Of a stretch of 64,000 nt of DNA, positions 23,747 to 26,311 are shown one piece after another (the stretch's first letter is position 1; each line of letters opens with the position of its first letter). Where the stretch lies: positions 62,001 to 126,000 of the forward strand of contig JAJDTB010000073.1 of assembly GCA_022827345.1 (NCBI GenBank), in the 5' to 3' direction. Position numbers and translations under genes: made by a program. Below the pieces are notes generated by a model. The model had not been told where the DNA came from and did no database searches. It saw only the letters and a program-made list of their open reading frames with translations. This DNA is from Gemmatimonadota bacterium (GTDB lineage: Bacteria; Gemmatimonadota; Gemmatimonadetes; Longimicrobiales; Gaopeijiaceae).

Positions 23747-24211
23747 CTACGCCTCCGTCACATCCGCCGTCCAGGTCACCTCCACCGCCCCCTTCAGGCT
23801 GCACGCCGTCGGGCACTTCGCAACGTGCGTCGACAGCGCCCGATCCACCTTGTCGCGCGGCGCCCCCGCGGGCAGCCGGATCGTGTAGTGCGCGTGGATC
23901 TTCGTGAGCACCACCATCCGGTCCACCACTTCGTTCACGCCCTCCGCCTTCACGCTGATCGCGTCGTTGGCCATCGGGATCCCGCGCACCTCCAGTGCGC
24001 CGTTGAGGGTCCCGAGTAGTCAGCCGGCGGCGGCCGCGACCAGGTAGTCGACCGGCAGGGGGCGGTCCGGCTCGGAGTCGAGGCGGTAGTGGGCCTTGAT
24101 CGGGCCGTGGACGCCGAAGTCCACCTCGGTGCCGTCCTCCAGGGTCGCGCGGCGGTGGATGCCGTCGACCTTGGCGACGGAGGAGCGGGCGGTGTAGAAG
24201 GGTTGGCTCAT
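23747..24211 (-). CDS. OsmC-family peroxiredoxin, probable selenoprotein (in-frame UGA at residue 64)
   Basis: Two collinear open segments (24211-24023 and 24019-23747) are separated only by one TGA at 24020-24022. Together they make a normal-length 154-residue OsmC-like protein: PLPVDYLVAAAAG, then U64, then LLGTLNGALEVRGIP. The UGA sits exactly where the family has its peroxidatic Cys (AAGC). The second conserved Cys is present in HVAKCPTAC. A hairpin of bacterial SECIS type starts 19 bases after the UGA. OsmC-like selenoproteins are known, so insertion of selenocysteine is the best reading; a nonsense mutation is the alternative. It would reduce organic hydroperoxides. Confidence 0.75.
23984..24000 (-). 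promoter_or_regulatory. SECIS-like hairpin in osmC
   Basis: Minus-strand GCGCAC (24000-23995), loop UGGAG (23994-23990) and GUGCGC (23989-23984). The stem is a perfect 6 bp, the loop has G in its first two positions, and its distance from the UGA (about 25 bases to the loop) fits the bacterial SECIS pattern. Confidence 0.6.
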
Positions 24212-24340: not shown

Positions 24341-25576
24341 TCAGCCGTTCGCCGTCCCCACGATCCGCTCGTACAACTCCGCATCCGTGGCCCCCTCGGT
24401 GTTGAACAGCAGCACGCGCGACCGCTCGCCCAGCCCGATTGCCTGTCGCAGTTCCGCATCGCCGGCCGCCTCGACCAGCCCCAGCAGTCCCGCCACCCCC
24501 GACTCCCCGCCCTCGAACGGGTCGCCGAACTCGCCCCGGGCCGCCGCCCTCATGACCGGCGCGATGCCCTCGTCCCGCACGGTCATGAAGGCGTGCGCGC
24601 CGACGCCCACGACCTCCCACGCCAGCGGTGAGATCTCGCGGCAGCTCAGCCCCCCCATGATCGTGTCGAGATCACCCAGTGCGGCCCGCGGCTCGCCCGC
24701 CCGTCCACTCTGGTACAGCCCGTCAGATGTCTCCGGCTCCACGATGACCGCGACCGGGCGATCCGGCCCGAGCCGCCCCCACAGGTGGCCGATCACCGCT
24801 GCCGCAAGGCCGCCCACACCGCCCTGGATGAACACATGGGTGGGCGTGGGGTCCATGTGGGCACCCCTGGATGCCTCGAGCATGCTTTGCCATGCCCCCA
24901 GTGCCGCCATGGCCTCCTCCACCATGACCGTGTATCCCACCATCACCACGCGCGGGATCTCCATGTAGCCCGGGTAGGACGTGTCCGAGATCACCGTCCA
25001 CCCGTTGTCGCGCGCGTCGCGGGCCGCCTGCGCGACCGCGTCGTCGTATTCGCCGTCCACCCGCACCACGCGGGCGCCGAACGACCGGATCGCCTCGGCG
25101 CGCATCTCGGTGACGTGGCTCGGCAGGTAGATGACGGCGCCGAGCCCGAACATCCGCGCCCCCCAGGCCACGGCGCGGCCATGGTTGCCGTCGGAAGCGC
25201 AGGTGACGGTGGGCGCCGGGTCGCCGCCGCGCCGATTGCCGGCCCCGTCGCCCCGCGCTGACCCCGGCTCCCCGGTGAAGCCCCGCGCGCCCGCGTCCGT
25301 ATCCCCACCCATCATCACCTGACGCACACCGTACGCCCCGCCCAGCGCCTTGAAGCTCCCGAGCCCGAAACGGCCGCTCTCATCCTTCACACCCACCCAA
25401 CCCAGCCCCAACCGCGATGCCAGAAAGTGAAGCGACCGGAGCGGAGTCGCCTCGTAGCCGGGCCAGGACTCGATTTCGGCTCGCGCGGCGTCGTGGGCCC
25501 CGGAACCGAGGATTGCTTCCAGATGCGCCGGGTAGGGACCGGGCGGAGCGGTCTTCGCATTCAGTGTCCAGGGCAC
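24341..25576 (-). CDS. dpaL: Diaminopropionate ammonia-lyase
   Basis: A 411-residue PLP enzyme of fold type II that deaminates 2,3-diaminopropionate to pyruvate and ammonia. PLP Lys lies in GRFGLGSFKALGGAYG, the cofactor Asn in TCASDGNHGRAVAWGA, and a glycine-rich phosphate loop in FIQGGVGGLAAAV. The start is GTG at 25576 (VPWTLNAKT) with GGAGG eight bases upstream; the frame is open to 26566 but that part overlaps msrA and the channel gene. An unusual Gly/Asp-rich insert (GGDTDAGARGFTGEPGSA) follows the Lys motif. It is divergent from msrA. Confidence 0.88.
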   Translation of the reverse strand: MPWTLNAKTAPPGPYPAHLEAILGSGAHDAARAEIESWPGYEATPLRSLHFLASRLGLGWVGVKDESGRFGLGSFKALGGAYGVRQVMMGGDTDAGARGFTGEPGSARGDGAGNRRGGDPAPTVTCASDGNHGRAVAWGARMFGLGAVIYLPSHVTEMRAEAIRSFGARVVRVDGEYDDAVAQAARDARDNGWTVISDTSYPGYMEIPRVVMVGYTVMVEEAMAALGAWQSMLEASRGAHMDPTPTHVFIQGGVGGLAAAVIGHLWGRLGPDRPVAVIVEPETSDGLYQSGRAGEPRAALGDLDTIMGGLSCREISPLAWEVVGVGAHAFMTVRDEGIAPVMRAAARGEFGDPFEGGESGVAGLLGLVEAAGDAELRQAIGLGERSRVLLFNTEGATDAELYERIVGTANG

Positions 25577-25639
25577 GGGCCGGGCCTCCGGGGCAGCGAG
25601 CAGGAAAAAACCAGTGAACCCTATTACCTTCCTTGAGCC

Positions 25640-26311
25640 ATGGATCTGCGTCAAATGTTTGGGAGTAGCGTGAAGCTCCGCAGGCCCGAGCCACATGAGG
25701 CGCTGACGGGCCGGACCGAGCCGCTGAGCGTGCCGAGCGCGCACTACGTGAGCGGGAACAGGATCAAGCCTCCATTCCCGGATGGATTGGTGCAGGCGTA
25801 TTTCGGGATGGGGTGCTTCTGGGGGGCCGAGCGGCTCTTCTGGGAGTTGCCGGGCGTCTATTCGACGGCGGTCGGATACCAGGGCGGACTCACCGCCAAC
25901 CCCACCTACGCCGAGGTCTGCACGGGGCGCACGGGGCACGCCGAAGTGGTGCTCGTCGTCTTCGACCCGGACCGGATCGCCTACGCGACGCTGCTCGCCG
26001 GCTTCTGGGAGGGCCACGACCCCACCCAGGGCATGCGCCAGGGCGGCGATGTGGGGACCCAGTACCGCAGCGCCATCTACACGGCCGGTGACGAGCAGCG
26101 GCGGCTGGCCCTCGAGTCCCGCGACCGCTACCAGGGCCGGCTGGCCGGTGCGGGCTACGGCGCCGTCACGACGGAGATCGTGGACGCGCCCGCCTTCTAC
26201 TACGCCGAGGAATACCACCAGCAGTATCTCGCGAAGAATCCGGGAGGGTACTGCGGGCTGGGGGGCACCGGAGTGTCCTGCCCCAGCGGAATCGCGGATC
26301 CGGTGGATTAG
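25640..26311 (+). CDS. msrA: Peptide methionine (S)-S-oxide reductase MsrA
   Basis: A 223-residue MsrA, repairing oxidised methionine. Catalytic Cys59 lies in [15 protein letters not shown], followed by [20 protein letters not shown] and the C-terminal [14 protein letters not shown] with resolving Cys residues. It has no signal peptide, so it acts in the cytoplasm. The 50-residue N-terminal extension is longer than the minimal enzyme. It sits with osmC and a bacilliredoxin in a stretch rich in thiol-redox genes. Confidence 0.95.

Follow-up and report, generated by a model that had tools for sequence, protein, structure and literature searches.

An OsmC-family gene with an in-frame UGA codon

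The question raised by this locus is whether an OsmC-family gene carrying an in-frame UGA is a broken gene or encodes a selenoprotein, with selenocysteine (Sec) in place of the peroxidatic Cys. The gene lies in a window, by which we mean the whole stretch of DNA analysed (64,000 nucleotides), from a Gemmatimonadota genome of 4.79 Mb (75 contigs, 97% complete). It starts with ATG at 24211-24209 and stops with TAG at 23749-23747 on the minus strand and, when UGA is read as Sec, contains a sole in-frame UGA, which is codon 64 (24022-24020) and is flanked by the residues AAAAG-U-LLGTLNG. An earlier note on this DNA had placed the gene at exactly these boundaries and recognized the single TGA as the only interruption of an otherwise complete OsmC gene. 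Our reading agrees, yielding a protein of 154 residues, and adds the strand, which that note did not give. Its expectation that gene finders would split the gene into two short ORFs is also correct, since calling with translation table 11 returns ORFs of 63 aa (24020-24211) and 80 aa (23747-23989). The features discussed below are the following.

23747..24211, minus strand: osmC gene read as a selenoprotein gene, 154 aa, ATG...UGA(Sec64)...TAG; Pfam OsmC domain, AlphaFold mean pLDDT 96.2, structure matches to OsmC/Ohr
24020..24022, minus strand: in-frame UGA, read as Sec, at residue 64, the peroxidatic position; kept in 60/60 distinct orthologues and in 20/20 paralogues; matches the Cys of Thermus OsmC 1ukk in an alignment
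23984..24000, minus strand: SECIS-like hairpin beginning 19 nt after the UGA, with stem GCGCAC/GUGCGC and loop UGGAG; pairing covariation and a freeze of synonymous sites
23813..23815, minus strand: codon 133, invariant Cys of a Cys-Pro motif (67 sequences), putative resolving Cys; matches the Cys of CPVS in 1ukk

Conservation of the UGA and selection on both sides of it

A search of the family retrieved 69 matches in 67 genomes, 58-99% identical and each with one TGA. Two of these matches also have a TAG, which ends the gene a few codons early, and no other interruptions were found. At the level of the phylum, further UGA-containing osmC genes occur in other genomes from the order and class. 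Read codon by codon, the 60 distinct orthologous coding sequences all have TGA as codon 64, and neither Cys nor any other sense codon is found at this site among them, down to ~58% identity. Comparisons within the genus give a median dN/dS of 0.130 for the part before the UGA and 0.149 for the part beyond the hairpin, and this second value, low and similar to the first, indicates that the second half of the gene is translated and used. As expected of a bacterial selenoprotein gene, the UGA thus takes the place of a functional Cys, and coding constraint is seen both before and after it. Close relatives with an ordinary Cys codon, along with evidence of decay in this copy, had been named in the earlier note as what would speak against Sec; the relatives all have UGA and no sign of decay is seen. 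Cys-containing OsmC matches were considered as a Cys version among the relatives and rejected, as the ones that these genomes contain are distantly related (27-32% identity, covering part of the protein) and represent other OsmC subfamilies.

That the UGA is a genuine stop, in a decaying OsmC pseudogene or between two short proteins as the table-11 ORFs would suggest, can for all practical purposes be dismissed, because a pseudogene is not expected to preserve a single stop at a fixed codon and the second ORF would be devoid of most of the catalytic helix H53-75. The reading is contradicted by a lone UGA shared at this site, with no sense codon, by 60 distinct orthologues to ~58% identity, by low dN/dS in both halves and by a hairpin kept through compensatory change.

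A scan of contigs, which reaches close relatives only, gave 46 loci with titles naming Gemmatimonadota, Gemmatimonadetes, Gemmatimonadales, Longimicrobiales or Bacterium HR33. Two of these loci, on contigs (L055 and L056) of one bin titled Deltaproteobacteria (RHO3_bin_65), are 92% identical, with a near-identical gene neighbourhood, and are probably mis-binned or misnamed.

A hairpin under constraint at the RNA level

Downstream of the UGA, the earlier note had pointed to a perfect 6-bp stem with the loop UGGAG, 19 bases away, and had read it as a SECIS-like element. The description is exact (GCGCAC-UGGAG-GUGCGC at 24000-23984, with a 5-nt loop, 19 nt between UGA and stem and a UGA-to-loop distance of 25 nt), and conservation and covariation support the SECIS reading. 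In keeping with the general pattern of bacterial SECIS elements (PMC1088965), the hairpin comes right after the UGA and exposes a G in a small apical loop. It shows no difference in kind from such elements, its codons being here almost invariant at synonymous sites. Folding of the single window sequence brings a modest gain only (z -2.3 versus shuffles), and the evidence for the hairpin therefore rests on comparison across relatives.

Codons 71-76 form the most codon-conserved six-codon stretch of the gene, with an excess codon identity of 0.56 versus a median of 0.08 (60 distinct orthologous CDS), and genus-level comparison gives codons 71-77 a synonymous pS of 0.000, versus 0.365 upstream and 0.397 downstream. 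Taken with the UGA present in 60 of 60 orthologues, the conservation of codons 71-76 puts the observation far beyond chance. Across 37 distinct sequences, orthologues and paralogues together, every one of the 222 pair cells of the stem is a standard pair (100%). Nineteen pair cells are changed on both sides, a count that 0 of 500 shuffles reached, and sliding the partner abolishes the signal. Compensatory changes are found at two of the six stem pairs, as A-U/G-C and C-G/U-A exchanges. In the stem of the paralogues described below, the 5' codon GCG (Ala) is replaced by GTG (Val) and is paired with a synonymous replacement of GCG by GCA on the 3' side, a coupled change which selection on the protein alone would not explain.

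Searching the host genome for the hairpin consensus after a TGA returned five places, two of which are the two osmC genes, compared with one place for the reversed-pattern control, while Rfam gave no match at gathering score within the window. In three distant UGA-containing relatives (L171, L173 and L174), which were left out of the stem-pairing count, the post-UGA sequence GGAGCCCTGGAAGCC is without the same hairpin by eye, and a different SECIS shape may be in use.

Selenocysteine machinery of the host genome

A lack of sel genes in the genome had also been named in the earlier note as speaking against Sec, and the search it proposed found them all. SelA (508 bits), SelB (321 bits) and SelD (378 bits) are encoded together with a tRNA-Sec (SelC; 76.5 bits, anticodon UCA), so that the set that accompanies a bacterial selenoprotein is complete. 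The tRNA gene is located on a contig other than that of the window, in which ARAGORN detected no tRNA. The host SelD gene (L018, G000:C61:28808-29728) has an in-frame UGA of its own, in the context HGAG-U-ACKLG and followed by a GC-rich stem GCUCGG...CCGAGC; this is the site at which SelD selenoproteins carry Sec. Among 121 genomes of the family, SelA was detected in 80 of the 85 that carry a Sec-OsmC gene versus 12 of the 36 non-carriers (Fisher p 6e-12, a value that is overstated since the genomes are related). The five carriers in which SelA was not detected are all MAGs, of 63-89% completeness.

Read-through of UGA with other residues exists in general, and the codon might be decoded as another amino acid, by near-cognate insertion of Trp or Cys or by a local change of the code. 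We consider this very improbable given the complete Sec apparatus, with its UCA tRNA-Sec and SelB, the SECIS-like hairpin at a suitable distance, the location of codon 64 at the catalytic Cys position of the fold and the coincidence of Sec-OsmC carriers with SelA. Altogether, the gene almost certainly encodes a selenoprotein of OsmC fold in which residue 64 is Sec.

Predicted fold and active site

The protein scores 51.9 bits against the Pfam OsmC model (PF02566, cut-off 27.5), which assigns it by sequence to the OsmC/Ohr superfamily. In the AlphaFold model, calculated with 67 aligned window- and locus-derived sequences (pTM 0.89), residue 64 is carried by a long helix comprising residues 53-75. 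Searches with this model by Foldseek gave E. coli OsmC 1qwi as top match (E 7.5e-10), followed by Ohr, and VIA-align gave Z scores of 15.6 to 2onf and 14.1 to 1qwi, and an OsmC fold is confidently predicted. The likeness to OsmC/Ohr hydroperoxide reductases (E. coli OsmC 1qwi and 1nye, Thermus OsmC 1ukk, Chromobacterium Ohr 6eb4) extends from the fold (Z 13-14, TM ~0.7) to the shared positions of the peroxidatic and Cys-Pro residues, whereas the differences consist of Sec for Cys, of Val/Leu/Ile for Glu at position -10, next to an invariant Asp at -9, and of an overall identity of ~20%.

Alignment to Thermus OsmC 1ukk by phmmer matches U64 with the peroxidatic Cys, where the earlier note had placed the UGA, and C133-P134 with the Cys-Pro that contains the resolving Cys, and the peroxidatic and resolving pair of OsmC/Ohr peroxidases (Cys/Sec ... 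Cys-Pro) is thus present. The residues U64, C133, P134, R20, H35, D55, Y56, G67, T68, R76, R124 and H129 are invariant in the 67 sequences. Ohr/OsmC enzymes have a catalytic Glu 10 residues ahead of the peroxidatic Cys. Present in 1ukk, it is found in none of the 67 sequences, which have Val (51), Leu (15) or Ile (1) at this position. With the Glu replaced and the Asp at -9 kept, the chemistry of the active site may differ from that of these enzymes. The absence of the Glu is compatible with the low pKa of Sec; alternatively, it could reflect a different chemistry.

The replacement of this Glu of the Ohr/OsmC charge relay (V54/L54), alongside the invariant D55, Y56, R20, H35, R124 and H129, would suit a selenoprotein with a main role other than peroxide removal, for instance in thiol-disulfide or electrophile/sulfide chemistry on an OsmC scaffold. 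We hold such a role to be unlikely, though deserving of consideration, as no variation occurs at the two catalytic positions, U64 and C133-P134, and the closest solved structures belong to OsmC/Ohr proteins, several of which are peroxidases. Our preferred reading is that of an obligate selenoprotein acting as an OsmC-fold thiol/selenol peroxidase, and the peroxidase step taken alone appears reasonably probable.

For this peroxidase we infer Sec insertion, activity, substrate and reductant as follows. When a ribosome reaches UGA64, SelB with Sec-tRNA-Sec(UCA) would bind the GCGCAC-UGGAG-GUGCGC hairpin and deliver Sec, allowing synthesis of the full 154-aa protein. The selenolate of Sec64 would then attack an organic, lipid-type hydroperoxide, and the selenenic acid formed at Sec64 would condense with Cys133 to give a selenenylsulfide, which would in turn be reduced by a cellular dithiol. 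In known Ohr/OsmC enzymes, the reducing dithiol is dihydrolipoamide.

Related UGA-containing OsmC groups

The same genome has a diverged OsmC paralogue (C13:237901-238341; L096:501-959) with 32% identity, a UGA at the same codon and a compensated hairpin of its own, GCGUGC-UGGAG-GCACGC. All 20 members of this paralogue group that were read have the UGA, which is likewise present at the equivalent codon in further related genes (L171-L175). In a different Gemmatimonadota family, an OsmC group (L159, L161 and L163, from genomes G231, G184 and G206) has UGA at the catalytic position within LGAUTSMTIALYA, and a Cys homologue (L155) lies near this group in the tree. The Sec rows are compact in the maximum-likelihood tree, but three Cys OsmCs fall within group A, joined by a branch 4.4 long; as the tree program itself warns of long-branch joins, we conclude nothing about where the root lies or in which order Cys and Sec replaced each other.

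Relation to described OsmC-like selenoproteins

OsmC-like selenoproteins (COG1765/PF02566) were first described from the Sargasso Sea, with three sequences and a UxxT motif (PMC1088965), and were relisted later (PMC9312934, PMC13188914). The statement in the earlier note that such proteins are known in other bacteria is therefore sound, with the refinement that the present gene appears to belong to a distinct OsmC subfamily and not to the described family. Common to both are an OsmC domain, a Sec that replaces the redox Cys and a bacterial SECIS downstream. The distinction is drawn from the published motif: the motif here is U-x-x-G-T instead of UxxT, with G67 at +3 and T68 at +4 in 67 of 67 sequences. 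The present proteins further differ in their Gemmatimonadota hosts, in forming two paralogous subfamilies and in having no close Cys homologue. Among NCBIfam models, the best-scoring one for the window protein is NF041052 (OsmC_like_Se, 'OsmC-related (seleno)protein'), with 30.6 bits for a cut-off of 95 bits; three paralogues tested scored at most 18.2 bits, and a match over the cut-off was found in 0 of 150 Gemmatimonadota genomes. This score far below the cut-off and the U-x-x-G-T motif lead us to file the gene outside the described OsmC-like selenoprotein family, and the window-type proteins look like separate Sec-OsmC subfamilies, while qualifying as products of selenoprotein genes and as members of the OsmC superfamily. 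A literature search retrieved no paper on OsmC selenoproteins in Gemmatimonadota, a weak result as few subscription journals were covered, and the name of the phylum is absent from the main text of two selenoproteome papers (PMC13188914, PMC5029168).

It is conceivable, although we would stop short of calling it probable, that the two related Gemmatimonadota OsmC subfamilies are obligate selenoproteins without close Cys counterpart, which have shed the Glu and rely on Sec with an invariant set of Asp, His and Arg residues. They would then constitute a class of selenium-dependent peroxidases, usually with two genes per genome in the family, that is missed by the standard selenoprotein model and by gene finders. 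The present findings add at least two Sec-only OsmC subfamilies beyond the reach of the existing OsmC selenoprotein model, with genes that gene finders cut in two. Since Sec is never swapped for Cys among the relatives read, these proteins are well suited to testing why Sec would be needed by an enzyme, and the almost invariant hairpin provides a clean target for work on SelB-SECIS recognition beyond the usual model bacteria.

Gene neighbourhood

Adjoining osmC in the window (24341-26311) are genes for an ammonia-lyase-like PLP enzyme and for MsrA, in an order kept in most genus-level relatives and mostly not beyond; being held mainly within the genus, this order carries little information on function.
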